64,000 nucleotides of DNA, from positions 1 to 64,000 of the forward strand of contig LXYH01000034.1 of NCBI GenBank assembly GCA_001650895.1. Reading direction: 5' to 3'. Origin of the DNA: Rhodobacteraceae bacterium EhC02. GTDB taxonomy: Bacteria; Pseudomonadota; Alphaproteobacteria; Rhodobacterales; Rhodobacteraceae. Positions 2,390 through 22,766 of this stretch are shown piece by piece. A program made the translations under genes and the position numbers. The notes beneath the pieces were generated by a model. It made no database searches. It was given only the letters and a program-made list of their open reading frames with translations, and was not told the origin of the DNA. The number at the start of each line of letters is the position of its first letter. Positions within the stretch are counted from its first letter, which is position 1.

Positions 2390-3928
2390 ATGCGCCACTT
2401 AGCCTTGATAATTTGCTTGATCGGCTCTCCAGCAGCGGCCAATGGACCAGTCACGTGGAGCGAGTTGCTGGCACCGGATCGCCTGATGCAAAGCCTGGCG
2501 CAATCAGTGACACTTACAATCCGTTCATTCTTGGACGTTACCTACACTGCGCTTGACGTCGACATCCGACGTGGCGCGGTCACTGTGAGAAACATAAAGG
2601 CTTACCCAAGGATCGCAGCGACAGATTTTGCGGATTGCCGGGTCGAGATAAGGCGCCTTGAAATCAATGGTGCAGGCCTGGCCAGCCCGGAAAGCATCAA
2701 GCTTGACCTGCGCGCAGACGACTTGCGCATGTCAAACACCTGCTTGATGCCACCGGTCAGCGAAAAGCTGGCGGAGGCTGGGTTGCCGACCTTGCGAATG
2801 CCCCGAGCAGTTTTGCAGCTAAACTACCATGTACCGAGCGCGAAGACACAGATCACCGGCTTTGCCGTGGCAGACGACTTGGCAGAGCTGTCATTTGACG
2901 TGGACCTCGACTACTTCTGGATTGACGCAAGCGTACCTGACCCCTACCCGGTGATACTCTTGGAACGCGCTGAGGTGACTCTTCGCAATCTCGGCATCTG
3001 GGAACTGCTCAACGAGGCAATGCCCGATGAAGCGCTCAACCCAGAGGTTGCACCAGCAATCTTGCAACTTGGCGCGGCGCAATCCCTTGTAGAAGCTGGT
3101 GCAAACGAGCCTTTCGCCGTAGCCCTATCGGCCCAGATAGCCCAAGCTTGGTCAGCATTCCTTTTGGAGCCAAAGATGTTGGCTGCAGCCTTCGAGCCTA
3201 AGGCACCAGTTTTTGTTGACTTGGTTGTTTTTGAGGACAGACCCGGCGAAATGCTGTCACAGTTGGCGCCGACTATCTCAGCCACCCCTATCACACGTGT
3301 CAGCCCTCTATCCGTAGATCTTCTGCGTAGCGCGCTCAGCGGATCGACCAACCTCTCTGCGGAAGACCGGTTGAAAGCCGGTCGCCAGTTGGCGACAGGC
3401 ATTGGCGCCCCAAGAAACATTGAGGCTGGCATCAAACTGCTGCTGCCACTGGCAGTGAGGGGCGACGAAGATGCATTGGAGGCCATTGCCGCGCTCCGTG
3501 CCGACGCCTTTCGAGCAGAAGACTATGCGAAAATGACCGAGGTCGCCGTTGGCAAACCAGACGTCGTCGCGCTTCTAGATGATCTGGAAGCGCGCATCGG
3601 ACTGGCCACGGCGATTACATTTCAAGCAGACTTCGAATTAAATCCATCATTTGATGGCATCGCGACTGTGCAAGACCTCAGATCTCGCGCGCTTGATCAT
3701 CTCGAAGGCAGTAGGGTCCCCCGCTCCTTCGCCAGGGCTGCTTACTGGGCGTATCTTGCTGCCGCTGCAGGAGATTTTGTCGGCCAAGACGTTCTTGCAG
3801 ACATCGAAGGACGCACAGTTAACGAACAAGACAAAGTGGCTTGGGAAGCCGTAGACCGCGCAGCGGCCTCCCGCGCCTTGAAAGATTGGATCGCAGCCGA
3901 TCTTCCCGCGCGCCTGAAATCACAGTAG
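2390..3928 (+). CDS. Exported protein of unknown function, Sel1-like C-terminal half
   Basis: 512-residue protein. A good Shine-Dalgarno (CAGGAG) precedes ATG 2390, so I prefer it to the upstream ATG at 2339. The N-terminus MRHLALIICLIGSPAAANG is a typical Sec signal peptide with cleavage after AAA, placing the protein in the periplasm. Residues about 40-200 are beta-rich with regular hydrophobic alternation. Residues about 330-400 contain helical text with Ala/Gly spacing (KAGRQLATGIGAPRNIEAG) like Sel1/TPR repeats. No enzyme motif is visible. It stands alone on the plus strand. The repeat reading is tentative; the coding call is firm. Confidence 0.65.
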   Translation: MRHLALIICLIGSPAAANGPVTWSELLAPDRLMQSLAQSVTLTIRSFLDVTYTALDVDIRRGAVTVRNIKAYPRIAATDFADCRVEIRRLEINGAGLASPESIKLDLRADDLRMSNTCLMPPVSEKLAEAGLPTLRMPRAVLQLNYHVPSAKTQITGFAVADDLAELSFDVDLDYFWIDASVPDPYPVILLERAEVTLRNLGIWELLNEAMPDEALNPEVAPAILQLGAAQSLVEAGANEPFAVALSAQIAQAWSAFLLEPKMLAAAFEPKAPVFVDLVVFEDRPGEMLSQLAPTISATPITRVSPLSVDLLRSALSGSTNLSAEDRLKAGRQLATGIGAPRNIEAGIKLLLPLAVRGDEDALEAIAALRADAFRAEDYAKMTEVAVGKPDVVALLDDLEARIGLATAITFQADFELNPSFDGIATVQDLRSRALDHLEGSRVPRSFARAAYWAYLAAAAGDFVGQDVLADIEGRTVNEQDKVAWEAVDRAAASRALKDWIAADLPARLKSQ

Positions 3929-6310: not shown

Positions 6311-7035
6311 GGGGGCCATTCGGTCTTCCATCAGGGGATCATGCAGACGGTTCACAGCACCTCGATGGGTGTGGATGCCTTCACCGGACGGAACCTGACC
6401 GGGGTCAGCGCCGGGAAGATACAGGATGCGGATGTGGGCCTGATCGAGCATAAGATCATGAAGGGCCTGGTTCCCAAGGGAAAGGAAGCCCTGATGCCGG
6501 TTTATGACACGGCTGGCATGGTCATCGGATATGAGCGGTCGATCGATCCGGAAATGATCCGCAAGATGAACAAGAACGACCATCTCGGCGAGATGATCGG
6601 GGCCTGGGCTGGCCGTCATGTGGAAGAAGCCGTGGCCCAGGAGTTCAACAACAAGCTGGTTCGGGAACTGAAGAAGATGTGGAACCGGGACAAGGGTTCC
6701 CACAGCAGTGAATACATCGACCTGTCCGATCCCAAACAGACGAACCAGATTGAGCAGGACGCCTGGAAACTGATCCCGAAACAGACCAAGGAAGAGATCA
6801 AGCGGGTCTTCGGGGACGAGGGTTTCATGGTCCGCAAGAGCGAGTTGGACAATGCTGTCGGCTACCGTGGGTTCTCGATCGGGGAAGCCTGGGCTGGACC
6901 CAGCAAGATCAAGCCAACAATTTCCTTGTCGATCTCGATCAGGATGAGAGTTTCCACAAGAAGCCCAGTGTCATCTACAAACATGGTATAATCAGGACTA
7001 GAGTAACGTGCAGGTCATCGCCAATTTTTCAATGA
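6311..7035 (+). pseudogene. Phage-like virion protein fragment, frameshifted
   Basis: From 6311 the frame reads as protein through ATG 6341 to about residue 185 (GYRGFSIGEAWAG). The in-frame text then becomes low-quality, while the +2 frame from about 6895 reads well (NNFLVDLDQDESFHKKPSV...) and ends at TGA 7033-7035. That shift of coding quality between frames is the evidence for a frameshift near 6890. The text (DAWKLIPKQTKEEIKR, then GYRxxSIGEAWAG) recalls parts of the very large virion proteins, including the virion RNA polymerase, of N4-like phages. I hold that family link only weakly. No other phage gene is adjacent, so this is an isolated fragment. Confidence 0.4.
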
Positions 7036-7657: not shown

Positions 7658-8980
7658 TCAATCACCCCGTCTCATTCGGGTGCTCCACGCAGCCTTCTCG
7701 AGGCCCCTGCGGTCCATCCTGCTCTCCATGGCAAGGGATGCCTGGATCACCATTTCCTTATGCATTCGCGGCGAGAACCGTTGACCCACGCGTTGTGCCA
7801 GCATCTCCAGTTCATCGATCATGTCACCAGCCTTTGCCAGGCCTTCCACATAGGGCTTGAAGAAACGCAGTTCTTCCTCGAGATACCTGCCCGCCTCCTC
7901 ATAGGCTGAATCCCTGTTCATTTTGGCCGCGGTCGCTACTATGTGCGCACTCCAAGTTCTCGCGACGATTTCGGCAATCTGTGCATCACGGCGCTGTGCC
8001 TTGTTCGTGCTGCCAAGGACGGCAACAAGCTTGGCTGCCTTGGCGTTGGCTTGGATCCAGGATCGGTTGTTGACAGTTCGCGCTTCTGCTTTCAGATGAA
8101 ATTCCAACTCCTCGCCTGGGCGAGCCTTCGGACAGGTCACCTTAAACACGGCAACGCGCTCGATCCCATTCTGAATTGGTCCCATCTGCACAACTAGATT
8201 GCCGCCGTGGAGTTCTGCCAGCCCCCGTCCCACCACTTCGACATGTACGCCTGCTGGCATCTCCAGGGCAATCCGGGCATCCTCGACGAGCGTATCGAAG
8301 ATGTCATCAAGTTCGCCCAGCAGAACAGAGGAGATCTCGCTCGTCAGTTCGGCGTCGTGGAGACGACCCCCACCATTCTCTGCAATACCCCGCAGCAATT
8401 GTTCGTCATACCCGTCACCAATACCCAACGTGGAGGTCAGGACGCCACGCATCCTGAGTTCTCCAGCGTGCTCGCGCAGTTCCTCCGGGTCGGTGATGCC
8501 TTCATTGGCGTGACCATCACTGAGAATGATGACCCTTGGAGTCATCCTCTCATCGGTTTCCGCGATCCGGGCGGCACATTCCACACCGGCAAACCACCCA
8601 CCTGAAAGACAGGTCATACCACGCGTTTCCAATCGCGAAATCTCGGCACGGATCTGGATGGCATTTTCCGGGGTAACGGGAACAGCATCGAGATGCACCT
8701 GGACGTCGGAGGCGAAAGAAACAACCGTGAGGCGGTCACGCTCTGTCAGGCGTGCGGCCAGCCCCATCGCGGCCTCCTTGGCCGCTTCGAGCTTGCCCCC
8801 CGCCATTGAACCACTCGCATCGATCACAAGAGCAATATTCAAAGGGGACGGCGCGGCGAGATTTTTCTCTTTTGCATGGTCAGCTTTCAGTCGGGCGACG
8901 AGGTAGCGGACCGAGTTTCCCCCTTCCCAGAAGAATTCCCGATCGAAAGTGGCGGTCGTGTTGAAATGAACTTCAGTCAT
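7658..8980 (-). CDS. von Willebrand factor A domain protein
   Basis: 440-residue protein with a complete MIDAS metal site: DASGS at 54-58, Thr123 in GMTCLSGG, and Asp155 in ILSDGHANEG. The VWA domain covers about residues 47-225. A beta-rich region (about 230-310) follows, then a helical C-terminus from about 320. No signal peptide is seen, so it is probably cytoplasmic, where VWA proteins usually act as metal-dependent assembly or chaperone-partner modules. The start overlaps the end of the MerR-like gene by 8 bases, with GAGGAA inside the upstream gene, indicating translational coupling. What the pair does is unknown. Confidence 0.85.
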   Translation of the reverse strand: MTEVHFNTTATFDREFFWEGGNSVRYLVARLKADHAKEKNLAAPSPLNIALVIDASGSMAGGKLEAAKEAAMGLAARLTERDRLTVVSFASDVQVHLDAVPVTPENAIQIRAEISRLETRGMTCLSGGWFAGVECAARIAETDERMTPRVIILSDGHANEGITDPEELREHAGELRMRGVLTSTLGIGDGYDEQLLRGIAENGGGRLHDAELTSEISSVLLGELDDIFDTLVEDARIALEMPAGVHVEVVGRGLAELHGGNLVVQMGPIQNGIERVAVFKVTCPKARPGEELEFHLKAEARTVNNRSWIQANAKAAKLVAVLGSTNKAQRRDAQIAEIVARTWSAHIVATAAKMNRDSAYEEAGRYLEEELRFFKPYVEGLAKAGDMIDELEMLAQRVGQRFSPRMHKEMVIQASLAMESRMDRRGLEKAAWSTRMRRGD

Positions 8981-9662
8981 TCTTGGTTCCTCCCGTCAGG
9001 ATAGCGCGGAAATGGTCCGCGAGTTGCTCAAAGAGAATGCGTTCACGTGGCTCAAGGTCTCCGCGGAGAGACAGTTCAAGATCCGGCGTGACGGAAATAC
9101 GCGTCCAGACGGCCCCTCTCGCGCGCCGAGGTGCAGGGGCCTCAAGGACCTCTTGCAGTTGAAGGATCAGCCGTTCAATGCTTGCAAGGTCAGCCTGTTT
9201 CTTCTCGAAGTCATAGGCGCGGAAAAAACCACTCGGCTCGCTGCTCATGCTCATTTGTGCAGAAGGTTCCTGTTCCGAGGTGGAAACAGACTTCGTGACC
9301 TTGCGAAGCACGTAGGCTTTTACAGGCTCCGGCTTGTTCACCCGGGCGCGGATCTTGCTCAAGTACTCGCGCGCAGCACCTTTGGGCGTTGTGGTCGGTC
9401 CCGCCTCCAGCGCCCATTCCCTGATCTGTTCCTCGGTCGCCATCATGAAACGCCGACCGATTTCAGAGAGAGACAACCCGTGTGCATCCTTCAGCGCTCT
9501 AATCGCCAAAGCACGGTCCGCGTTGCTGGCCGGGTAGCGGGCGCCTCGTCCAGGCTTGAAGGGAGGCGAAAGAAGTCCTTCCGCAACCCAGGAGCGCAGC
9601 GTGCGGGCTTCTACGCCGGTGCGCTCGCTTAGTTCTTCGAGTGTGAGTTCATGTTCTGTCAT
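8973..9662 (-). CDS. MerR-family transcriptional regulator
   Basis: 229-residue regulator. Residues 5-70 form a MerR-type winged helix-turn-helix: LTLEELSERTGVEARTLRSW, a wing containing the RGARYP turn, then the helices ALKDAHGLSLSEIGRRF. The C-terminal half (about 100-229) is not a known metal or drug sensor; it carries a helical stretch and a beta-rich end. I chose ATG 9662 because a well-formed promoter places transcription initiation almost on that codon, whereas the ATG at 9698 lies inside the promoter. The gene is transcribed with the VWA gene and probably represses both through the palindrome upstream. Confidence 0.8.
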   Translation of the reverse strand: MTEHELTLEELSERTGVEARTLRSWVAEGLLSPPFKPGRGARYPASNADRALAIRALKDAHGLSLSEIGRRFMMATEEQIREWALEAGPTTTPKGAAREYLSKIRARVNKPEPVKAYVLRKVTKSVSTSEQEPSAQMSMSSEPSGFFRAYDFEKKQADLASIERLILQLQEVLEAPAPRRARGAVWTRISVTPDLELSLRGDLEPRERILFEQLADHFRAILTGGTKND

Positions 9663-9669
9663 GCAAACG

Positions 9670-9707
9670 CATTTAGGAGCAAAATTGCGACATGTCAAGA
9701 TGTCGCA
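9670..9707 (-). promoter_or_regulatory. Promoter and palindromic operator of the MerR-vWA operon
   Basis: On the minus strand TTGACA (9698-9693) and TAAATG (9675-9670) are spaced by 17 bases. A perfect inverted repeat, TGCGACAT and ATGTCGCA with a 6-base spacer, spans 9686-9707 and covers the -35 box. The -10 ends 7 bases before the start codon, so the message is probably leaderless. Binding by the MerR-like product is inferred. Confidence 0.6.
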
Positions 9708-10593: not shown

Positions 10594-11124
10594 TCAAATG
10601 CAATTAGGTTTGTCAGATTTCTTTCTGCTGGTTTCGCCTGTAAACTTCGGCTTATTTTCCGGAGAAATGGGCGCGCCGATTTCCATATACTGGCTATCAG
10701 CATGGTCCGCTGATGTGATGAACGCAGAAACCAACCCGATAAACTCCTGTGAGGCGGCCTTTTCAACGGCGCATTCCCAGATGATGAGAAGTCGCCAGCC
10801 TCGTCGCATCAAGGCCTCGGCGGTTTTTGCATCGCGGGCGACATTGGCGTCAAACTTCTCCCGCCAAAAGCTTGAGTTGTTTGCCGGTGTCGTCGCTTTG
10901 CGACAGCCGTCGTGTCGGTGCCAGAAGCACCCATGAACTTGGATGGCAACACGCCACTTGGGGAGCACGATATCAGGAGTTCCCGGCAGGCGGCGGTCAT
11001 GGATACGGAAGCGAAAACCTCGAGCGTGCAAAGCTTGACGCACAAGGATTTCAGGCGTGGTATTCGCGCCCTTGATCGCCGACATCATGCGTGAGCGCGT
11101 TTTCTTGTCCACCACATCGACCAT
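10594..11124 (-). CDS. vsr: Very short patch repair endonuclease Vsr
   Basis: 176 residues; Vsr nicks DNA 5' of the T in T:G mismatches that arise when 5-methylcytosine deaminates. The active site is intact and falls at the same numbering as I recall for E. coli Vsr: Asp51 (GTPDIVLPKW), His64 and His69 (VHGCFWHRH). The structural zinc ligands are Cys66, His71, Cys74 and Cys118 (IIWECA). The N-terminus with TRSRMMSAIKG is also typical. A C-terminal tail makes it about 20 residues longer than the E. coli protein. It is divergent from the methyltransferase gene across 86 bases, the expected partner, since Vsr protects against the mutagenic cost of cytosine methylation. Confidence 0.95.
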   Translation of the reverse strand: MVDVVDKKTRSRMMSAIKGANTTPEILVRQALHARGFRFRIHDRRLPGTPDIVLPKWRVAIQVHGCFWHRHDGCRKATTPANNSSFWREKFDANVARDAKTAEALMRRGWRLLIIWECAVEKAASQEFIGLVSAFITSADHADSQYMEIGAPISPENKPKFTGETSRKKSDKPNCI

Positions 11125-11210
11125 GATCTTTATCTATGTTCTCCAACTCTTTTTTCCACCTGGCATTGACGACGAAACCTGGTAGAAATGCGCTTCCATG
11201 AAGGATTGCC

Positions 11211-12704
11211 ATGACCCAAGAATTTGCCATCATCGATCTATTTGCGGGGCCCGGTGGCCTCGGTGAGGGTTTTTCGCGGGCTGGTCGTGCTTCCGATGCT
11301 AGGATGAAGATCCATCTGTCCGTCGAGATGGATGACCACGCCATCCAGACGCTGCGATTGCGCGCTTTCCTGCGGTCCTTCGACGAGTTCCCTCAAGAAT
11401 ACTACAATGCCCTGAACAAGGGCGAACCTCTTCCTGACTGGTCGGAACTCTATCCATCGAACTGGAAGTTGGCGGAGCAGGAAGTCAGGCAGCGGATTCT
11501 GGGTGGGGACGGCGTGTTTGAGGAGCTGGCTGTCGAACTCGACCGGGCCCGCGAAGCGCACGCAGGAAACACGATCCTGATCGGGGGGCCGCCCTGCCAA
11601 GCCTACTCCCTCGCGGGCCGTTCACGGAACAAGGGTAAGGCTGATTACGTGCCGGAACAGGATGAACGGCATTACCTGTATCGCGAATACGTGCGCATTC
11701 TGGATCGCCTGAAACCGGCGGCTTTTGTCATGGAGAATGTAAAAGGCATGCTGTCGAGCAAGGTCGATGGCGGGGGCATCTTCAGCAGGGTTCTGGATGA
11801 TCTCGAGGGTTCGGGGGACGGGTATCGGCTGCTCCCTCTGGCTCAACCGACACCCGAAGATGGCAGTCGGGCGGAGGCGCGCAGCTTCCTTGTCCGTGCC
11901 GAAGACCATGGTGTTCCCCAGGCTCGCCACCGGGTCATTATCCTCGGGATACGCAAGGACATAGCTGCAGGCTTGAATCTGAATGGCCCGATCCTGGGGG
12001 AGCCCCAGCCGCCGGTCACGGTCGGAGAGGCCATCACCGGCATGTGGCAATTGAGGAGTCGTTTGAGCAGTCAGGACAGCGTTGACGGTTGGCACCACGC
12101 TGTCCGTGAGCAGGCCCTCGCCATCGCCAATGCCATCGGTATCCCCGATGAAGTGCAGGCAATTGCCCGCGCGATCGCTTCGGCCAACGACTTGCCTCAC
12201 CACCGCAGCAGTGGTTGGAAGGGGGAGAAGGCACCAATGCCCGATCATCTCCAGGCCTGGTTCTCCGACGAACGGTTATGCACAACACTTCAGCACGAGA
12301 CCCGCGGCCATATCCCAGAAGATCTGGGGCGCTACATGTATTCAGCTGCCTACACGCATGTGTTTGAGAAGGCCCCGAAGCTGATGGAGTTCCCGCAGTT
12401 TCTGCAGCCGGAACACAAGAACCGCGGCTCCGGAGACTTTGCCGACCGTTTCCGGACCCAGGCGGCGGGCAGGCCCTCGACGACCGTGACCAGCCATATC
12501 TCAAAGGATGGGCACTACTTCATCCATCCGGATCCAAAGCAATGTCGTGCCCTGACCGTGCGCGAGGCCGCGCGTCTGCAGACCTTCCCGGACAACTACT
12601 GGTTCTGCGGCCCACGCACGAAGCAATATCATCAGGTGGGCAACGCGGTGCCACCTTACCTTGCCTATCAGATTGCATCCGCGGTCAGGCGGTTGCTGTC
12701 GTGA
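11211..12704 (+). CDS. dcm: DNA (cytosine-5) methyltransferase
   Basis: 497-residue C5 methyltransferase. All key motifs are present: motif I LFAGPGGLGEGFS (10-22), motif IV GGPPCQ with catalytic Cys129, motif VI ENV (175-177), motif VIII QARHR (237-241), motif IX VREAARLQTFPDNYWF and motif X GNAVPP (477-482). The target-recognition region between about 250 and 430 is unusually long and defines an unknown recognition sequence. AAGGA lies six bases before the ATG. The gene is divergent from vsr and convergent with the GHKL-Z1-nuclease-AIPR operon, 21 bases apart. I infer that it supplies the self-marking methylation for that operon. Confidence 0.93.
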   Translation: MTQEFAIIDLFAGPGGLGEGFSRAGRASDARMKIHLSVEMDDHAIQTLRLRAFLRSFDEFPQEYYNALNKGEPLPDWSELYPSNWKLAEQEVRQRILGGDGVFEELAVELDRAREAHAGNTILIGGPPCQAYSLAGRSRNKGKADYVPEQDERHYLYREYVRILDRLKPAAFVMENVKGMLSSKVDGGGIFSRVLDDLEGSGDGYRLLPLAQPTPEDGSRAEARSFLVRAEDHGVPQARHRVIILGIRKDIAAGLNLNGPILGEPQPPVTVGEAITGMWQLRSRLSSQDSVDGWHHAVREQALAIANAIGIPDEVQAIARAIASANDLPHHRSSGWKGEKAPMPDHLQAWFSDERLCTTLQHETRGHIPEDLGRYMYSAAYTHVFEKAPKLMEFPQFLQPEHKNRGSGDFADRFRTQAAGRPSTTVTSHISKDGHYFIHPDPKQCRALTVREAARLQTFPDNYWFCGPRTKQYHQVGNAVPPYLAYQIASAVRRLLS

Positions 12705-12725
12705 GAATGGCGCGAAGCGGGCCGG

Positions 12726-14840
12726 TCACTCGGCCGCAGTCGCCTCTTGTTTCCCACCAAAGCCGTTGCTCTCCAATTTCGCGAGCACCTTGATGGCCAC
12801 TGCGGTCTGGTTTTCGGTCGGAATCCGGTTAGGGATCTTCGAGCAGATGTCCAGAACCTGATACTCCATCGGCGACAACTGCTTGTGCATGCGTCCCCAA
12901 TCGCGAGCATTCTGCCAGAACTTTGGACCGAGTTCGAAGACCCGTGCTTGATCCTCGACGCTCTTTGTCAGTTCGGCGTCGTCCTTGATCTCTTCGTCCT
13001 CGCTGCGGGCCTCTTCCGGAGCGATGAGCATGCCCTTGAAGTCTTCCGGGTAGTCCAGCTTCGTTTTCCGGAAGCGCTCCCAGCAGGCCTGCTTCTTGGC
13101 CCATTCGCTCATGTTCCGGATACCTTCCGGGGGGCTGGTGATCAGGCTCTGCGCTTCGGCGGCGGCGACCAACAGAGCTTGCTCGAGAGCAGGCGGCACT
13201 GTCTGCATCCGCCAGACCCGCTGGAGGTCCACTTGTTTCTCGGCGGCCTCGGCGTCATGCGCGACCTTTGCGATGGCATAGGTCACGATGTTCGCGCGGT
13301 ATCCTCCTTCATACCATTCCTGGGCCGAGACCAGTCTTTCCAGCCTGCGGAAGATGATCGCCTTCGCGATCAACTGGCGATACCAGACCTCGTCCACCCG
13401 GGCGCCACTCTTGCCCCAGACCTTCTGGATCAACTTGGCGAACTCGGCGAAGTTCTTCTGGGCGCCCTTGGAGACCTCTTCAGGACGTCCATTCCAGGAG
13501 TTCTCGAACTTGGCCAGGTCGGTTTTGGTGAAGAATTGTGACTTCGGGAATTCGGCATCCCATTTGTCGCGCTGCGCCTGAGTCTTCTTGCTTCGCTCGT
13601 CTGCGAATTGCCCTCTTGCCCGTTCGTAGAACCACTTTGTTTCCCGGTATCCATCGGCACCAGCAGGTGCGAGGATCTTGCGCGACAGTTCCTCGACGCG
13701 GATGTGGAACGGGTGGTTGGCAAAGAAGTCCGCGGCGTTGACCTTGTTCTGACTGTTGGCGAACTCCGAAATCAGCGGAACCACGGTAGGTGCCAATGTC
13801 GGAGGGACGATGTTCAGTTTCATTTGGACGAAGATATCCTTGAGACCTTCGCCTGCCAGCTTTCGGGCTGCATGGATCGAGGCTGTTGTCTGGCCGCCAT
13901 TCACAATCTGAAGGTTGTCAGCACTGGTGATAACCAAACCATCTTCTGTCTTCTGGCAGACTACGTTCTCGGCCGTGGCCGAAAGGCCGTTATTATAGGC
14001 AAAGAACATCTGTGGTTCTTTGGCAATGGTGTCCCTGATACCCCTGTTCACCTTTCCGCGGGCCTGCAGGAAGCTCCTCACGTTGGCTTCCAGCAGGCGG
14101 GCTCCCCAGCGGTCGTAGATCTGGGCGAGTTGCGCACCGGGAATGACCGCAAGATAGCTTTCCAGGGCCGTGTCTGCCCCCGAAGCGCGAAGGACTGGCA
14201 CCGCGCCGCCGAAGTCCTTGACGAAATCGATTGTGAGATCTTCCCGGGCTCTGCCCTGTTCGATATAGCCTTTGAGCCGTTTCAGATCCCATGAACTGTA
14301 AGTCACCGGCTTGCCGTCTATGTTGCCTGCCGACATTGCATCGGCCTTCGCGCGGTTGTCGGCATTGGTGACGAAGATCAGTTTGATCTTTTCGATCGAC
14401 GACCAGCGGGACTGGATCAAATCGACCAACTGTGCGGCATTGCTGGTTTCTTCGAGGTCTTCAAGAAAATCCGGCTTTCGGGAATGCCTTAGAAACTCGA
14501 CAAGCTTCGAAAACTGGGCCTTCAAGTGTCTTGCCTCAGTTGTCCTGACTGTTGGGGTCAACTGGAAATCCGTGAGAATAAGAGCAAGCTCTCCGCCGGT
14601 GTCTCGTGGATCCCCGCCATAACCCGTGACCTCGAGCGATACCTTCCCAGATATCTTTGCTTTCATGACGGTTCGAACGCCTTCGAAATGGCAGTAGTCG
14701 CATTCCTCGATCTCGCCGGCCTCGTTCAGGATCTCTCCAGCCTTCTCGAAAAAGGCTTCGTGAAGGTAGGCCCCCATGGCATCGGCGTTGCCTTGAATAT
14801 CCGCGATCAGACTCTGATGGAATTCCTCAAGCTCCGACAT
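12726..14840 (-). CDS. AIPR family protein (abortive infection phage resistance)
   Basis: 704-residue protein of the AIPR family. The hallmark blocks are present: LLEANVRSFLQARGKVNRGI (249-268), FFAYNNGLSATAENV (279-293) and QIVNGGQTT (311-319). The region before residue 200 looks like a nuclease-type alpha/beta fold (IKLIFVTNADNRAKAD then YSSWDLKRL). Family members are known from phage-exclusion loci, but their biochemistry is poorly defined. It is the last gene of the four-gene minus-strand operon; its start overlaps the PD-(D/E)XK gene by 14 bases, with GGAGA seven bases upstream. Being distal and overlapping, it should be made together with the nuclease and ATPases. Confidence 0.88.
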   Translation of the reverse strand: MSELEEFHQSLIADIQGNADAMGAYLHEAFFEKAGEILNEAGEIEECDYCHFEGVRTVMKAKISGKVSLEVTGYGGDPRDTGGELALILTDFQLTPTVRTTEARHLKAQFSKLVEFLRHSRKPDFLEDLEETSNAAQLVDLIQSRWSSIEKIKLIFVTNADNRAKADAMSAGNIDGKPVTYSSWDLKRLKGYIEQGRAREDLTIDFVKDFGGAVPVLRASGADTALESYLAVIPGAQLAQIYDRWGARLLEANVRSFLQARGKVNRGIRDTIAKEPQMFFAYNNGLSATAENVVCQKTEDGLVITSADNLQIVNGGQTTASIHAARKLAGEGLKDIFVQMKLNIVPPTLAPTVVPLISEFANSQNKVNAADFFANHPFHIRVEELSRKILAPAGADGYRETKWFYERARGQFADERSKKTQAQRDKWDAEFPKSQFFTKTDLAKFENSWNGRPEEVSKGAQKNFAEFAKLIQKVWGKSGARVDEVWYRQLIAKAIIFRRLERLVSAQEWYEGGYRANIVTYAIAKVAHDAEAAEKQVDLQRVWRMQTVPPALEQALLVAAAEAQSLITSPPEGIRNMSEWAKKQACWERFRKTKLDYPEDFKGMLIAPEEARSEDEEIKDDAELTKSVEDQARVFELGPKFWQNARDWGRMHKQLSPMEYQVLDICSKIPNRIPTENQTAVAIKVLAKLESNGFGGKQEATAAE

Positions 14841-15804
14841 CCCGTGTCTCCCCCAATAGCAATGTCTTCAAATCTGTTGTCGTCTCGAAGCCGGTGCAAG
14901 CGTCGAGGCGTATCGAATAGGCCAGTTCTTCGGTCCCTGCTGGCAGGGGCGGGACAATCCTCGGGAAGCCCTCGACGACCTGAAACAGCCGCGCCGCTCC
15001 AAGGTGCCAGCGACGTTCAGGTTCGACGGCGTCTTCGGCATAGGGGCTTTCGGCGATGCGCTGCTCCCACACGTCCAGCGCCGCAATATCATCTTCGAAC
15101 AGCTTCGCCGTTCTGTCCACATGATCCTTCAGGTTGTCACCCTCGGCGTCCAGTGCTGTGTCCACATCCTGAACGCGAAGGAACAGCTGGGCTCCGACGA
15201 TGTCCATCAGTTGGGCCTCGGACGAAATCCGGATCTTCGGATGGGCTGCGCTCCTCCGCGCCTTGACTTCGAAGAACATGCCGGGAAGCTCGAAGTCCTT
15301 CGCGCTGTCATCCGGCCCCTTCCATGCTTCGGCGGCCTTGCTCGGGCCGATGACAGCGACGAGTTCCCGCAGGAATGCGAGTTCGCCGACCAAGCCCCGT
15401 TGGACTTCTAGCGGCATTCCCTGCTTTCCGCCTCGCAAAAGATGGTGCCAGCGCATGGCCCGCCGAACGGCGCGGCCGAGTGCCCCCTGAAGATCGGCGG
15501 CCTCTTCGCCCGCCGAAACCACGTCCCGACACAGTGTTTCGAACAGGTCGATATGGGCAGGCTCAGACAGCGTGATGCAAAGGTGATTGCTGCCCTCGAC
15601 GACCCGGTAAAAGACGCCGACATGCTTCAGTTTCGGCAGCGGTCGAACTTCGTTGATGCCGTCCGAGAGGCGCAGCACCAATCCAGGAGACCCGTCAGGC
15701 ATCCTCACCCAGAAGAAGTCGAACCGACCTTTGCTGTCGACGCGCCGCGCCTCATTCTCGGCGAGGCTGGCCCAAGGTCCCTCAATCATCCTCAAATGCG
15801 CCAT
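14827..15804 (-). CDS. PD-(D/E)XK motif protein (DUF4420-type)
   Basis: 325-residue protein with a restriction-endonuclease-like core: GELAFLREL with Glu141, then KDFELPGMFFEVKA giving Asp170, Glu179 and Lys181. This D-x(n)-E-x-K arrangement is the catalytic signature of PD-(D/E)XK nucleases and matches the family annotated as PD-(D/E)XK motif protein. ATG 15804 is supported by GAGGA five bases upstream; a second ATG at 15789 is possible. It overlaps the end of the Z1 gene by 23 bases and the AIPR gene by 14. It is the likely DNA-cutting subunit of the locus. Confidence 0.85.
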   Translation of the reverse strand: MAHLRMIEGPWASLAENEARRVDSKGRFDFFWVRMPDGSPGLVLRLSDGINEVRPLPKLKHVGVFYRVVEGSNHLCITLSEPAHIDLFETLCRDVVSAGEEAADLQGALGRAVRRAMRWHHLLRGGKQGMPLEVQRGLVGELAFLRELVAVIGPSKAAEAWKGPDDSAKDFELPGMFFEVKARRSAAHPKIRISSEAQLMDIVGAQLFLRVQDVDTALDAEGDNLKDHVDRTAKLFEDDIAALDVWEQRIAESPYAEDAVEPERRWHLGAARLFQVVEGFPRIVPPLPAGTEELAYSIRLDACTGFETTTDLKTLLLGETRDVGA

Positions 15805-18538
15805 CGTCGTCCTCTTCCGTGCCGTAGATTTCGCGGAACTTCTGGGTGTTGATGATATATTCGACCCGATCGTTCGGCTTGCTGGACGGGGGGAGACTAA
15901 TGCTCCATCCGATCACGGGGCGTTCCGGCAGTCTGTCGAGCACGCTCTTGTCGCGCAACTGATCGATGTCCTTTTCCTCTGGCGCACGAACCTTCACGAC
16001 ATGAAGAACGAACAGCGGCTTGTCGCGGACCTGACGATAGATTCTGTCAGGGAAAGACGGGCGTTTGTCCGGGTCCTTGCCATCGAGCTTTTCCGCAGCC
16101 AGATACGCGGCCTCTGCCTGCTTGGCCTTGTTTTCATCGACTCCGATTCGTTCCACGCCTCGTGAGGCGATACGCGCGCGTTTGCCGCTCATGGACAGAA
16201 GATGATCCCCGAGGTCAGCATAGCCGATACGGCGCATCTGCGGACCGACGGCCCATCCGCCGATGTCAAAGCTGCCCGCCTCGCTCTTTACGTCGGTGAC
16301 AAGGACATCCCACAGTTTCAGTTCGTCCGCCTGGCGATCGCGGATGTAATTGCGGACCGGTCCGGGCTGGGTCAGGAATGCCTGTTCATGGTTGCGCCAT
16401 CCCAGCAGGAACTGATCGATCATTTCGACCGGAACGTCATTCACCAGATTGCCGCCATTCACCTTGACGGCGGCGTCTGGCCCCAGTCCACGCGCTGCCA
16501 TGTCCTCAAGCAGGCGAACGGCGGCCTTTTCGTTGGCTTCGAGTTCCTTGGGCTTCGCCGTGATCTTTGCCGTCTCGACCCAGGCATTGGACAGGCCGAT
16601 CAGGATGTGTTTCTGGCCGGAACCCATCTTGTTGCGGGCGGTCACCAGAAGCGACGCAGGGTGGCTCCGCACGGCCAGGCCGAAGTCCGAAGGGGTCGCC
16701 TTGGCCTTCTCCATCTTCTTCAACTCGAAATGCAGCTCCTCACTCGCCTCGGCGATGTGGGCATACCAGTCGATCGCTTCGGAGGGCATCCAGATGCGGC
16801 ATAGATCCTCGTAGCCGCCGCGATAGCCGAACCAGCGGCCCATCTGCATCAGCGTGTCATACATCATGGTGTTGCGGAGGAACCAGGTGACCGTCAGGCC
16901 TTCGAGCGTGAGGCCCCGCGACAACGAAAAGCCGCCGACCGCAATGACCGTCTGACCGAGGTTGGATTCGCCGGAATAGTCGAGACCATTGGCGCTGCTG
17001 TTCACCTCGACCACCTTTGCCGCGGCGACCGCTTCAAGCATGGCCGCAAGCACCTTTGACCAGTCAGGTTCCGCGTCGAAATACTCCCGTTCCCAAGTGT
17101 CATGCAGATCGGCGATCATCGCGTCGCGCAATGCCGCTTCACCGCGCGCACCGTTGACACGCAGCGAGTCCTGAATGGAGCCGACGTATTGGTGCAAACG
17201 GTTCCGCAGCAGCCCTTGCACCTTCGTGAAACGGCTTGCATTCACCAGCATCGAGCAGTGTTTCGAGGCCTGGCCGCGCAGGTTCCGGATCGTCCGTGCG
17301 ATCAGGAATGCACGAACGGCCTCTTTCAGGCTTTCAGGCAATTCATCGACCGTCTGGTCGATGCGGTGCTTGATCGGCAGAACGTCTTCGTTGTCGGTGA
17401 TGTAGCGCAGCCAGATCGGATCTCCGTCATCGGGTATTCCGTCGATGAAGATCTTCTTGGCACCGAAGTAGTTGGATGGCGCATCCAACCCGACGATGAA
17501 GTGCTTCGGAAACAGATCTTCCTTGAGCACTTCGTCATCCTGATCCGGATCGACGAAAATGTTGGCGAAGGGCGTCGCCGTGTAGCCGACGTAGCAGCTG
17601 CGGTGAAACATGTTCAGCAGATCCCGGATCTGCCCGTTGATCTTGGTGATCTCGTCTTTCGAATACTTCGTGTTGATCGAAGCGTTGTCGGCTTCGTCGT
17701 CGATCAGCAGCATCGGCTGGTCGATCATCTGATCGTCGCCCCTGGCGCTGTTCTCGCGCAGCCAGTCCAGCAGGTTGCGGAGCGTGTTGTGGTTCTTTTT
17801 GATGACCAGGACCACCGGAACCTTGTAGGAATCGATCTGGCTGGTGTTGGTGGACGCCGTGTCCTTGCGGAAATCCGCAAGCGTGTTGGTCAGGCTGACC
17901 GGAACATGGCGGTCATCGAAGAGCCCGACACCGATGGCGCGGTTGCCCTTCTTGCCCTGCGTCGCCAACCGCCCGGTGTCGCGACCGATGAAGCCTTCGT
18001 CGATCCTCTCCTGGGTCTGGTTGCGCAGGTTGTTGTGGATGCCTGCGATCACGACGATCAGGCGGTAGCCCGCATCCGCAGCCTTGCAGATCAGGCCGGT
18101 GTAGTTCGCCGTCTTGCCGCTCTGGACGTGACCGACCACCATTCCGCGGCGATCCCACTTCTCCGCCAACCCCGGGTTGCCCAGGCGACCAAGGATGCGG
18201 TCCGTCAGCTCATCGGTGGTGGTGATGACATCGTGGGGCAGACCATTCTTGTGAAGCAGTTTCTTGTATCGGTCCCAGTAGAACGGGTCGATGGACGCCT
18301 TGGCCTCGTCCAGCCACGGACGAAAGCTCTCATCGTCGACCATCGCCCCCAGCCCCATGGTGATGCCGAAACGCTCCTCGATGTCGCGCGCAAGCTGCTC
18401 GAGCGCATCCGGCGCGGCATTCACGTTCAGCGCCACATTCATCGTGGTTATGAAGGACCGCAGCTCGTAACCGCTCTTGCGTTGATGTGCCAGTGATTGC
18501 GAGACGACATCGTCTAGATGCTTGAGCGCTGCGGTCAC
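15782..18538 (-). CDS. Z1-domain helicase-like ATPase
   Basis: 918-residue superfamily 2-like ATPase with the Z1 domain. Walker A is GHVQSGKT (136-143), motif II is DDEADN (280-285), motif III-like is TATP (320-323), and the C-terminal lobe has SRGLTLEGL (540-548) and the arginine-finger-like QMGRWFGYR (565-573). The C-terminal 300 residues carry no recognised domain. It starts with GTG at 18538 inside the GTGA overlap with the GHKL gene, with GGAGA six bases upstream, so it is translationally coupled. In related loci Z1 proteins pair with MutL/MORC-type ATPases; a role in DNA translocation or unwinding ahead of the nuclease is inferred. Confidence 0.92.
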   Translation of the reverse strand: MTAALKHLDDVVSQSLAHQRKSGYELRSFITTMNVALNVNAAPDALEQLARDIEERFGITMGLGAMVDDESFRPWLDEAKASIDPFYWDRYKKLLHKNGLPHDVITTTDELTDRILGRLGNPGLAEKWDRRGMVVGHVQSGKTANYTGLICKAADAGYRLIVVIAGIHNNLRNQTQERIDEGFIGRDTGRLATQGKKGNRAIGVGLFDDRHVPVSLTNTLADFRKDTASTNTSQIDSYKVPVVLVIKKNHNTLRNLLDWLRENSARGDDQMIDQPMLLIDDEADNASINTKYSKDEITKINGQIRDLLNMFHRSCYVGYTATPFANIFVDPDQDDEVLKEDLFPKHFIVGLDAPSNYFGAKKIFIDGIPDDGDPIWLRYITDNEDVLPIKHRIDQTVDELPESLKEAVRAFLIARTIRNLRGQASKHCSMLVNASRFTKVQGLLRNRLHQYVGSIQDSLRVNGARGEAALRDAMIADLHDTWEREYFDAEPDWSKVLAAMLEAVAAAKVVEVNSSANGLDYSGESNLGQTVIAVGGFSLSRGLTLEGLTVTWFLRNTMMYDTLMQMGRWFGYRGGYEDLCRIWMPSEAIDWYAHIAEASEELHFELKKMEKAKATPSDFGLAVRSHPASLLVTARNKMGSGQKHILIGLSNAWVETAKITAKPKELEANEKAAVRLLEDMAARGLGPDAAVKVNGGNLVNDVPVEMIDQFLLGWRNHEQAFLTQPGPVRNYIRDRQADELKLWDVLVTDVKSEAGSFDIGGWAVGPQMRRIGYADLGDHLLSMSGKRARIASRGVERIGVDENKAKQAEAAYLAAEKLDGKDPDKRPSFPDRIYRQVRDKPLFVLHVVKVRAPEEKDIDQLRDKSVLDRLPERPVIGWSISLPPSSKPNDRVEYIINTQKFREIYGTEEDDDGAFEDD

Positions 18539-20025
18539 GAGGTTTCTCCCTGAATTTCTTCAACAAGCTGTCGAATCGCTTCCTTGTGGTGGATGAACGG
18601 CTCCGTCGAGCATAGAGTCCTCACCACGTCATTTCCTGTCATGCTCGAATTCAGCAGCGCCCGGACGGCGATCTCGGCCGAGTCTGCGAGATCGGTGAAA
18701 TCCGCCGCATCCTGCGTCACATCCTCGGCACCGCCCAGCATGTCCGCGTGCAATGCCGCAATGGGCAGGCCGCTTCCCAGGAGGCTGATGCAGGTCTTGA
18801 ACCCATGCCGGAACTCTTCGGGCAGCGCGGCTGCGAAACCGGTGATCGAGGGGTGCTCGACGTTGGGGCGGTAGACGATACCACCATCCTTCTGGATACG
18901 GTTCCAGAGCGGCAGATACTCATCTGACACGAGTTTCCGGCCCCGCCGCTGGTAGGTGCGCTTCGATGTTCCCTGGAGCCGCTCGACGATCTTTCGCAAG
19001 CGTTCGCGAACAACTGGCGGCATCTGAGCCGATGCCTTGCGCACGTCGATCTTCCAGTCCGAGTCCATGGTGTTCGGGATATCGACGCGCACCCTTGCCA
19101 GCTTCGTCAGTTCTGTCTGCCGTGCGAGGCCCAGCCAGCTGCCGGCGATGATAAGGCGGCGTTCGCGATAGATGTAGAAACCTTGGGACCGCAGATGGCC
19201 TTCGGGGCCGCCCAGGTCATCCCATGCGGTCTTTGACATCTTCTTGTGGTGGGGAAGTGTGAAGCACTGGGTGACGACTTCGCCGTTCAGCAGCGGCAGG
19301 GGTTCCTCTGGGCCTGGCTGAGTCGCCGGGTGGTCGGTCGCGAAGGGATCGATCGGCGAGAGCTTGCGCTCGTTGAGCAGTATCCGCAGGTCGGGTCTGC
19401 TCCCTTCCATGTAGCGGTGAAAGCATAGCCGTAGGTGGCGTTCTGCGCCGGAAATGGCCTTGTTGATCTCCGCAGATCGCTTGGCAACATCATGCCTGAA
19501 GTTGGTCGAGAGCCGGTCAAGCTTGCGCCAAAGCACAATGGTCCCCGTATCCGGCAAACTGTCCGCGACGGGTATGTCGGTCAGGTCATCCTCGAGGTCG
19601 ACGCGCCAGTCGTTGGTCTCTACAACCTTGTCGAGATCCCATGTCGCGGCGGACGTCTGACCATCCTTCCTGGAGATCACGGTCAACTGGCGGCATTGCG
19701 AAAAGCTCGCGCTCTTCAGGCCCAACCCGAACCGCCCAAGATCGTGGCCTTCGCGTTCCTGTAGTGGGTTCTTTGTTCCCGGTCGCATGGCTTCGATCAG
19801 TTCGGGCTCGGTCATGCCTGACCCGTTGTCGACGATCGCGATCCAGGGTTCATCCGTCGCCGTTTCCGCGAGTATCTCGACCTTGGATGCCTTGGCGGTC
19901 ACCGAGTTGTCTATGACATCGGCCATGGCCGTCTCTAAAGTATATCCAAAATCCCGCATTCCCTCGATCAAAGAGGCCGCGTGCGGAGTCGCGTCTGCTT
20001 GTCTTTTTGTTGTAAGGGCAACCAT
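18535..20025 (-). CDS. MutL/MORC-like GHKL ATPase
   Basis: 496-residue ATPase of the GHKL (gyrase, Hsp90, histidine kinase, MutL) fold. The N box is ADVIDNS (35-41), the G1 box DNGSGM (66-71), and the G2 box GRFGLGLKS (97-105). The form of the G2 box with GLGLKSAS is that of MutL and MORC proteins, not histidine kinases. The middle carries a second S5-like fold, with a conserved Lys/Arg patch near 315-350. It is the first gene of the four-gene operon. These ATPases dimerise on ATP and act as DNA clamps; I infer that it senses or clamps unmodified DNA for the downstream Z1 and nuclease proteins. Confidence 0.9.
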   Translation of the reverse strand: MVALTTKRQADATPHAASLIEGMRDFGYTLETAMADVIDNSVTAKASKVEILAETATDEPWIAIVDNGSGMTEPELIEAMRPGTKNPLQEREGHDLGRFGLGLKSASFSQCRQLTVISRKDGQTSAATWDLDKVVETNDWRVDLEDDLTDIPVADSLPDTGTIVLWRKLDRLSTNFRHDVAKRSAEINKAISGAERHLRLCFHRYMEGSRPDLRILLNERKLSPIDPFATDHPATQPGPEEPLPLLNGEVVTQCFTLPHHKKMSKTAWDDLGGPEGHLRSQGFYIYRERRLIIAGSWLGLARQTELTKLARVRVDIPNTMDSDWKIDVRKASAQMPPVVRERLRKIVERLQGTSKRTYQRRGRKLVSDEYLPLWNRIQKDGGIVYRPNVEHPSITGFAAALPEEFRHGFKTCISLLGSGLPIAALHADMLGGAEDVTQDAADFTDLADSAEIAVRALLNSSMTGNDVVRTLCSTEPFIHHKEAIRQLVEEIQGETS

Positions 20026-20262
20026 TCGTTATATGCCAAAGATTCAATAAAATTTTCATCCGGGCTCGGCAGCGAGTCACCGGTATAGGTCAATCATGAG
20101 CACAGCTTTGTGGCGAAATGAAGAGAGTTAACGAAAATAAATACACTTTTCAGCGGCATGCGGCTCCGGCTATGTCTGGTGTTCTGGCATAGACCTTGCA
20201 GTCTGTCTCCTGATCCTGTGGACAGGATAATTTCGATGTCGTGCCGCGCGGATACGATGGCT

Positions 20263-20700: not shown

Positions 20701-20764
20701 CGCCTGCCTCGGGCTTTTTTGTAGCGTGTTTGACGTCAGCACCCACCGGACAGATTTAGGGGTT

Positions 20765-22195
20765 TGAGCAACGGAGGAATTCTGGTTCATCGAAGCCATT
20801 ATGGAGCGAAGGTGAACAAGAAGTCCGGAACATCGAAAGACGCCGCTGACAAGCTGGTCAGGGGCATCAAGCGGAAGACGCGCAAGAACTACTCGGCCGA
20901 GGAGAAGATTAGGATTGTCCTGGTTGGCCTACGGGGCGAGGAGAGCATTGCCGCGCTGTGCCGCCGGGAGGGGATTGCCGAGAGTCTGTATTATTCCTGG
21001 TCGAAGGAGTTTCTCGAAGCCGGCAAACAGCGTCTCGCTGGCGAAACGGCGAGGCAGGCAACGACTCCGGAGGTGAAGGAACTGCGCTCCGAGGCGGCCG
21101 CGCTGAAGGAGGTGGTCGCCGAACTAACCCTGAACAACCGACTGCTCAAAAAGCATGATCGGGGATGGGGAGGACGGAGAATGAGATACCCTGCCTCTGA
21201 GAAGCTTGAAATCATCCGCACGGTGTAAGCCTCGCATCTGCCGGTCAGGCAGACGCTGGCGATGCTCGGCATTCCCAGCAGCACCTATTACCAATGGTAT
21301 GCTCGCTGGGTCGATGGTGACGTTGACGCGCTTGCCGATCGCTCGCCACGCCCGCGGTCGGTGTGGAACCGCATCCCGGATGACATCCGTCAGGCCTTCC
21401 TCGAGTTCGCGCTGGACCACGAAGACCTGACACCGCGCGAGCTGGCAGTTAAATACACCGATGAGAAGTAGTATTTTATATCGGAATCATCGGCTTACCG
21501 AATTCTCAAGTCTGCCGATCTGATTACGGCGCCAGCCCATGTGGCCATTCGGGCTGCGGACGAGTTCCGGGATAAGACGACACGCTCGAACGAGCTCTGG
21601 CAAACCGATTTCACCTATCCCAAGGTCATCGGCTGGGGCTGATTCTATCTTAGCACGATCCTCGACGATTACAGCCGCCACTTCATCGCTTGGAAGCTGT
21701 GCACCAAGATGAAGGCCGCCGACGTAACCGACACGCTGGAACTGGCGCTGGAGAAATCCGGTTGCGATCACGCTTCAGTGGCTCAGAAGCCAAGGCTGCT
21801 TCGCGACAATGGCGCGTCACACGTCGCCGCTGACCTAGCGGATTATCTCGGAGCCAAGGGCATGGATCACGTCCGCGGTGCGCCGCATCATCCGCAGACC
21901 CAAGGCAAGATCGAGCGCTGGCACCAGACAATGAAGAACCGGGTCTGCTCGAAAACTACTTCCTGCCCGGTGATCTCGAACGCCAGATTGGCGCCTTCGT
22001 CGATTACTACAACAACCGCCGATACCACGAGAGTCTGGGCAATCTGACGCGCGCCGACGTCTATCACGACCGCGCCGCCAGAATCCAGAAAATGAGAGAG
22101 GAGATCAAGAAACAGACCATCCGCAAACGCCGCTTGCAGCACCAATCCGCTGCCGCTTAAACTTAAACAAAAATCGAACCAGAGCCTCCGTTACA
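20765..22195 (+). mobile_element. Decayed IS3-family insertion sequence with terminal repeats
   Basis: About 1.43 kb bounded by imperfect terminal inverted repeats. The left end starts TGAGCAACGGAGGAATTCTG; the right end, read inward, starts TGTAACGGAGGCTCTGGTTC. The termini are therefore TG...CA as in IS3 elements. The transposase inside has several stops. The bases flanking the two ends do not match, so no target-site duplication is visible, which suggests a later rearrangement or deletion at one end. Confidence 0.75.
20812..22160 (+). pseudogene. IS3-family transposase, multiply interrupted
   Basis: The first part (GTG 20812) encodes an orfA-type helix-turn-helix protein: NYSAEEKIRIVLVGLRGEES then ALCRREGIAESLYYSWSKEF. 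It is fused by a small deletion near 21150 to the orfB start (MRYPASEKLEIIR). The orfB text continues through stops at 21226-21228 (TAA), 21469-21471 (TAG) and 21640-21642 (TGA), and a frameshift near 21945. The rve integrase core is readable: LWQTDFTYPKV, ILDDYSRHFIAWKL, LRDNGASH and PHHPQTQGKIERWHQTMKN, holding the DDE residues. The end YYNNRRYHESLGNLTRADVY is typical. It is not functional. Confidence 0.85.
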
Positions 22196-22682: not shown

Positions 22683-22766
22683 TGGTGCGGGTGGTCGGAC
22701 TCGAACCGACACACCGTGAGGTAAGGGTGTTTGAGACCCTCGCGTCTACCATTCCGCCACACCCGC
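22683..22766 (-). tRNA. tRNA-Leu (anticodon CAA)
   Basis: 84 bases including an encoded CCA. The acceptor arm is GCGGGTG paired with CACCCGC. The anticodon stem AGGGT/ACCCT encloses the loop CTCAAAC, giving anticodon CAA (reads UUG). A long variable arm (class II tRNA) and the T-loop TTCGAGT are present. Its 3' end points toward the accessory region, the usual integration target of islands. Confidence 0.97.

Follow-up and report, generated by a model that had tools for sequence, protein, structure and literature searches.

A predicted MzaA-less member of the MZA/MORC-Z1 restriction family near a tRNA-Leu gene of Rhodobacteraceae bacterium EhC02

Organization of the locus and family assignments

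The window analysed here, by which we mean the whole stretch of 64,000 nucleotides from contig LXYH01000034.1 of Rhodobacteraceae bacterium EhC02, carries six genes at positions 10594-20025, all of them open frames at the positions given in an earlier sequence-only reading of the same DNA. Four of these genes lie on the minus strand with successive overlaps of 4, 23 and 14 nt, and encode a GHKL ATPase of MORC type (18535-20025, 496 aa), a Z1-domain SF2-type ATPase (15782-18538, 918 aa), a DUF4420 protein of PD-(D/E)XK type (14827-15804, 325 aa), and an AIPR protein (12726-14840, 704 aa; AIPR_N at residues 30-189, AIPR at 250-571). A C5-cytosine DNA methyltransferase gene on the plus strand (11211-12704, 497 aa) is convergent with the AIPR gene across a gap of 21 nt, and divergent from vsr, the gene for a Vsr mismatch endonuclease on the minus strand (10594-11124, 176 aa). 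Frames and Pfam agree with the arrangement proposed in the earlier reading, in which four overlapping minus-strand genes face a methyltransferase gene paired with vsr; the profile search that it recommended returned HATPase_c_3 (3e-34), Z1 (2e-80), DUF4420 (1e-59), AIPR (2e-100) together with AIPR_N (3e-31), DNA_methylase (2e-48) and Vsr (2e-28), each above the Pfam cut-off. Scanning the locus for promoters and terminators gave counts close to those of shuffled sequences.

The GHKL, Z1, DUF4420 and AIPR proteins are homologues, respectively, of MzaB, MzaC, MzaD and MzaE of the MzaABCDE (MZA) system, which was reportedly described as anti-phage by Gao and colleagues in 2020. The PADLOC matches are 2e-90, 6e-142, 2e-10 and 4e-86, and the NCBIfam matches 1e-102, 1e-163, 8e-27 and 2e-110. 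None of the four core proteins reaches its NCBIfam equivalog cut-off (in the same order, 343.8, 546.3, 94.3 and 370.3 bits against cut-offs of 850, 1500, 420 and 1050), and we therefore regard the set as a diverged relative of MZA with no strict equivalog. The homologues follow the MZA order GHKL-Z1-DUF4420-AIPR; unlike MZA, the locus has no MzaA, an ankyrin-sigma70 protein whose ORF lies upstream of the GHKL gene in loci L027, L201, L202, L203 and L204. A profile of five MzaA-like proteins found no match among the window frames of at least 90 aa between positions 1 and 26000, even at an E-value of 10; applied to 100 other Z1 loci, the same profile detects MzaA in no more than 3. Eight stretches had been fetched for MzaE, three of which were too short or had no core, while a fourth had a GHKL fragment only. 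Among the loci nearer to canonical MZA, C5 methyltransferase and Vsr are present within the fetched DNA of L027, L201, L202 and L204, and absent from that of L203. L027 and L201 to L204 are themselves under the MzaE equivalog cut-off, and none of the 398 genomes in the MzaE scan lies above it. In L027, the MzaA ORF has a GcrA domain attached.

Assignment of the locus to the loci of Iyer, Abhiman and Aravind, as made by the sequence-only reading, agrees with the presence of the S5, DThhQXuRhFG and E-D-ExK motifs. The MORC/paraMORC loci described in the accessible part of Iyer 2008 (PMC2292703) have, as does the window, a GHKL-S5 ATPase, an SF2 helicase with DThhQXuRhFG, an E-D-ExK protein, Dcm, Vsr and AIPR; the Asp at the GHKL catalytic base of the window's family is unmentioned in that part. 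The corresponding text of Miller 2022 (PMC9523054) calls MZA a validated anti-phage system and presents a putative defence 'type II' with Z1, PD-(D/E)XK, cytosine methyltransferase, AIPR and associated MORC, a content without clear difference from that of the window; it prints DUF4220, probably for DUF4420, and in those sections names DNA repair endonucleases only with type I. A categorically new system is ruled out, because the layout is already published (Iyer 2008; Miller 2022). Judged by its protein families, the locus belongs to the MZA/MORC-Z1 restriction family, as a member that has no sigma factor (MzaA), and its kind has been described before.

Two further systems share components with the locus. 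CglI/NgoAVII (PMC4267653) has a C5 methyltransferase, a Z1-domain SF2 ATPase and a nuclease, as the window does; the nuclease, however, is a PLD/B3 protein, and GHKL, DUF4420, AIPR and Vsr are unmentioned in the accessible part of that paper. According to the same part (PMC4267653), the N-proteins of these enzymes are dsDNA-dependent ATPases that are required for cleavage, and methylated sites are left uncut. None of the six window proteins has a Pfam match to a PLD or B3 domain. With regard to DISARM, the methyltransferase, whose best PADLOC match is DrmMII, is the only one of the six proteins that matches a Drm model; the DISARM partners of DrmMII are DrmA, DrmB and DrmC. A search by title, with most subscription papers and all preprints outside its scope, turned up no paper on the biochemistry of the MZA core.

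Motifs of the core proteins, methylase and Vsr

The sequence-only reading had taken all catalytic motifs to be intact, which holds for the Z1, DUF4420, methyltransferase and Vsr proteins and needs qualification at the presumed catalytic base of the GHKL protein. In the latter the N, G1 and G2 boxes are present (D36/D39/N40, DNGSGM, GRFGLGLKS), and the position of the catalytic-base Glu, which we presume from E. coli MutL, is occupied by Asp (D36) in every one of the 97 sequences aligned, including that of the window; this Glu-to-Asp change suggests that ATP turnover may be slow. Residues G282-I292 (GFYIYRERRLI) match the MORC S5 motif GhXhhpXXRhl as it is given in the accessible part of Iyer 2008 (PMC2292703), and the G, R287, R290 and L291 of this motif are kept in all 97 sequences. 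In the Z1 protein the motifs GHVQSGKT, LIDDEAD, YTATPFANI and DTLMQMGRWFG are largely invariant across relatives, and the last of these (D561-G571) is the helicase motif DThhQXuRhFG of the same source (PMC2292703, same part). The Walker lysine of the Z1 protein is K142. The DUF4420 protein has a full E-D-ExK set: an alignment of 53 sequences (A3, 52 of 96 relatives plus the window) shows no variation at E141, D170, E179-x-K181 or Q198. The methyltransferase motifs DLFAGPGG, GGPPCQ, ENV and QARHR and the motifs of Vsr are likewise conserved across relatives. Profile searches against solved structures with the AIPR, DUF4420 and Z1 proteins gave zero matches.

Recurrence of the gene set

The earlier reading would have been contradicted by a lack of recurrent co-occurrence of the six families in other genomes; they recur together in several phyla. 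A family-based search for Z1, covering relatives and class, provided 20 stretches (G332, G203 and G190 were left out). All six families are found in 6 of the 20, and all but Vsr in 2 more, in one of which AIPR is split over two frames; the stretch around Z1 includes a C5 methyltransferase in 19 of 20 cases, and L035, the one without it, is cut by the contig end. Simpler cousin loci occur as well: methylase-GHKL-Z1-DUF4420 loci without AIPR (for example L030, L031 and L046), and methylase-Z1-DUF4420 loci with neither GHKL nor AIPR (L038, L041 and L042). The minimum seems to consist of Z1, DUF4420 and a methylase, GHKL and AIPR being additional members; a set of Z1, DUF4420-type protein and methylase is also the core of the systems in the accessible part of Miller 2022 (PMC9523054).

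Profiles built from the 20 loci of the Z1 survey were used to count co-occurrence in a scan of named genomes, and also to annotate the stretches fetched for MzaE. The scan gave at least 580 relatives, and keeping the 80 best of them biases the sample to close relatives. Even so selected, the relatives include Proteobacteria, Planctomycetota, Chloroflexi, Nitrospira and Verrucomicrobia. The six families are complete in 63 of these best 80 of at least 580, and 9 more are without Vsr only; the remaining 8 consist of four without methylase and Vsr and four without more. Relatives on viral contigs have the complete set in 13 of 20 cases. The gene-neighbourhood survey called for in the sequence-only reading shows the core to be co-directional and fixed in the order GHKL-Z1-NRE-AIPR in every one of the 93 loci that contain the four genes. 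Among the 64 loci for which at least 2.5 kb is available on both sides, none is without a C5 methyltransferase, and 55 have Vsr. The place of the methylase is more variable. Among the 74 genome loci in which it could be placed, 40 have it upstream of the core and co-directional with it, and 23 have it downstream and pointing towards the core, which is the arrangement of the window.

Joint divergence of the core and exchange of the methylase and Vsr

Pairwise identity matrices were calculated for the 79 loci with five full-length genes, window included. The rank correlations between core proteins are 0.80-0.87, to be compared with 0.33-0.37 between core and methylase, 0.21-0.32 between core and Vsr, and 0.45 between methylase and Vsr: the four core genes diverge together, and the methylase and Vsr are exchanged largely independently.

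The exchange appears to involve a repair enzyme as well as a methylase. The role of the Vsr family is repair of T:G mismatches after deamination of 5-methylcytosine. Two of the Vsr-less loci have a glycosylase instead: in L077 the methylase is fused to a MutY/Nth-type glycosylase (L077:6604-8523), and in L085 a separate relative of that glycosylase is encoded just upstream of the methylase (L085:6628-7482). No other Vsr-less locus has a glycosylase match, while L107 has Vsr together with a weak one (1.7e-5). From the glycosylases of the two Vsr-less loci we read Vsr as a probable repair enzyme for deaminated 5-methylcytosine, and the simplest reading of the exchange is that the methylase and its repair enzyme, Vsr or glycosylase, form an exchangeable cassette. 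We also considered Vsr as a part of the effector core, and rejected this because Vsr identity tracks the methylase better than it tracks the core proteins; the glycosylases of L077 and L085 count against it too. The window's Vsr is only 58-59% identical to its counterparts in L047 and L048, as opposed to 93-94% for the adjoining methylase, which suggests that Vsr may have been replaced separately or may change fast.

A plain restriction model has its main weakness in the target-recognition region of the methylase, which is not tracked by the core. Among 75 core windows none co-varies with this region (best r = 0.16; mean 0.017, sd 0.073; 12 loci with other methyltransferase subfamilies left out of the search), and the tracking of the methylase as a whole is weak, neither of which would be expected of a core that recognises the methylase's site by means of an interface evolving along with it. 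The core might instead ignore the mark of its own methylase and sense some other feature of foreign DNA, namely a phage modification, structure or replication state, with the methylase cassette acting as a protector that also serves other purposes. Such a core would fit the untracked target-recognition region, and also two further observations: the L070 methylase shares no more than 26% identity with its L068 and L069 counterparts at core identities of 64-80%, and one five-member methylase subfamily is found with four different core clusters (the members scanned, L055 and L070, match NF007772, which we take to be the model for E. coli Dcm, under its cut-off). On the other hand, a C5 methyltransferase in every adequately flanked locus would be puzzling if self-methylation were dispensable, and different methyltransferases may share one target. 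On balance we consider sensing of another feature unlikely.

The AIPR protein

In the 72 sequences of alignment A2 (71 of 90 relatives plus the window) the invariant polar residues of AIPR include N253, R255, N283, N284, N314, Q317, T318, K341, N362, Q364, N365 and D371, as expected for an enzyme or a ligand-binding site. AlphaFold models of the whole protein and of residues 205-450 have pLDDT values of 87.5 and 85, respectively; helices and strands are mixed in the modelled N-terminal part, and the HEPN fold is all-helical. Neither model has a significant Foldseek match among solved structures. For the whole protein the top three matches are N-domains of pNOB8-like ParB (E 0.56-0.84, probability 0.25-0.33, not significant). 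For residues 205-450, ParB/Noc chains are found at ranks 3, 10, 11, 15 and 17 (best ParB E 0.29) with a probability of 0.44 that is the highest among the 50 matches listed, yet their TM-scores stay under 0.3 and unrelated proteins outrank them by E-value. The pattern strand-[IVNGGQTTASI]-helix-strand-helix-[ANSQNKVN] resembles the DGQHR ... N..A.K of DndB. An hhalign comparison of AIPR with 12 proteins carrying a DGQHR-like motif, from 14 loci fetched for DndB, gave P 0.42, which does not improve on the controls (GHKL 0.40, DCM 0.32), and two of four control alignments scored better. The tie between the AIPR core and ParB/DndB is thus weak and statistically unsupported, a lead rather than a result; it fits the link between the DndB and AIPR families asserted in the accessible part of Makarova 2012 (PMC3506569). 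The accessible text of the 2025 survey of ParB folds and of the Dnd and BREX surveys (PMC12704722, PMC10853773, PMC12839542) does not contain the term AIPR.

A possible reading of this lead, which we put forward as tentative, is that AIPR/MzaE acts as a nucleotide-gated switch, with a core at about residues 205-450 that would be a diverged NTP-binding fold of ParB/DndB type. IVNGGQTTASI would then take the place of DndB DGQHR, and ANSQNKVN that of the N..A.K helix; AIPR would link the sensing of foreign DNA, carried out by the MORC-Z1-nuclease machine, with a decision that depends on NTP, and the methylase-Vsr (or methylase-glycosylase) cassette would be a plug-in that is swapped without changing the machine. 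What goes beyond Makarova 2012 is the proposed fold, the mapping of the motifs and the role as a switch.

AIPR could also be the effector of abortive infection, halting growth once the motor or nuclease meets unmodified or invading DNA. The family is named for this function, and the window protein resembles AbiU (PADLOC, 1e-19) and matches the Abi-alpha-like phage family phrog_1841 (5e-37); its many invariant polar residues, and the N-terminal HEPN toxin domain that AIPR proteins carry according to the accessible part of Makarova 2012 (PMC3506569), point the same way. That domain is at odds with the mixed fold predicted for the N-terminus of our AIPR model, and the cousin loci L030, L031 and L046 keep methyltransferase, GHKL, Z1 and DUF4420 with no AIPR at all. 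We regard abortive infection as rather doubtful, while noting that it is compatible with a restriction-modification function, which is our best explanation. A second gene of the AIPR family is present elsewhere in the same genome (G000:C4:72860-73798, L002; 142.6 bits).

Genomic setting and selection

In all five of the same-genus genomes fetched, homology to the window stops at position 22683, which is the 3' end of a tRNA-Leu (CAA) gene on the minus strand (22683-22766). For this reason positions 1-22682 are most simply read as an island inserted at tRNA-Leu, the outer end of which lies beyond the window, since the window starts where the contig starts. A tRNA is present in 13 of 41 loci of at least 22 kb, a raw count that does not establish tRNA linkage of such loci in general. 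In the first 30 kb of the window, DNA similarity to L047 and L048 is confined to about 10841-20027, which suggests that the locus is transferred as a whole. A search for near-identical plasmid copies of the locus gave a single match, over 8% of the query.

The DNA around the locus had been called decayed by the sequence-only reading. This is correct for a transposase remnant with internal stops (20764-22170, presumably of IS3 type from its domains) between the locus and tRNA-Leu, and incorrect for the left side, where the metallophosphatase, VWA and MerR genes are all open. On that side (7658-9698, minus strand) the VWA-domain gene overlaps the gene for the MerR-like regulator, and the regulator weakly matches PADLOC mad1 (5e-7). 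Further left, a frame of 216 aa (6341-6991, plus strand) matches a late part of the virion RNA polymerase of N4-like phages (phrog_2206, 3.5e-58, profile positions 2879-3081 of 3406; 44.7% to Sinorhizobium phage ort11); no DNA-level match was found for it, and its protein match marks it as a phage gene fragment within the same island. With such a fragment and a broken transposase as neighbours, the locus itself could be decaying island cargo that has lost its function. We consider this very improbable: the six frames are open with conserved motifs, and dN/dS is 0.05-0.08 in five genes relative to L047/L048 (in Vsr the silent changes are saturated), which shows selection for function.

A model for the function of the locus

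Our preferred interpretation, which we hold to be probable, is a mobile, MzaA-less restriction-modification system of MZA (MORC-Z1) type that acts on unmethylated incoming DNA. The families, their motifs and recurrence, the joint divergence of the core, purifying selection and the island setting speak for it; the weak tracking of the methylase by the core, and the absent tracking of its target-recognition region, speak against it. We infer every one of its biochemical steps. Given its motifs and constant linkage, the C5 methylase would mark self DNA, and Vsr would repair the T:G mismatches that arise from deamination of 5-methylcytosine at the methylated sites. The four-protein core would work as one machine. 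In it the Z1 protein would serve as a DNA motor driven by ATP, for which CglI is the precedent, the GHKL protein of MORC type would be a clamp that is gated by ATP, with an expected slow turnover, and the DUF4420 protein would be the nuclease, while AIPR, whose conserved site resembles that of an enzyme, would act as an additional regulator or effector; the roles of Z1, DUF4420 and GHKL are drawn by analogy with CglI/NgoAVII as described in the accessible part of that study (PMC4267653). Such a machine would most likely cut or block incoming DNA that lacks the methyl mark. The class and the general model offered by the sequence-only reading fit this interpretation; the homology to MzaB-E, the 2022 description, the association of Vsr with the methylase, the tRNA-Leu island and the changed GHKL base had escaped it.

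MZA/MORC-Z1 loci are widespread, and the survey gives testable rules for how they are built: the four core genes keep a fixed order, every adequately flanked locus contains a C5 methylase, methylase and repair enzyme seem to form an exchangeable cassette, the GHKL protein has Asp in place of the catalytic Glu, and some cousins do without AIPR or without both GHKL and AIPR. These rules indicate which gene removals would separate motor, clamp, nuclease and AIPR, and they bear on the function of prokaryotic MORC ATPases.
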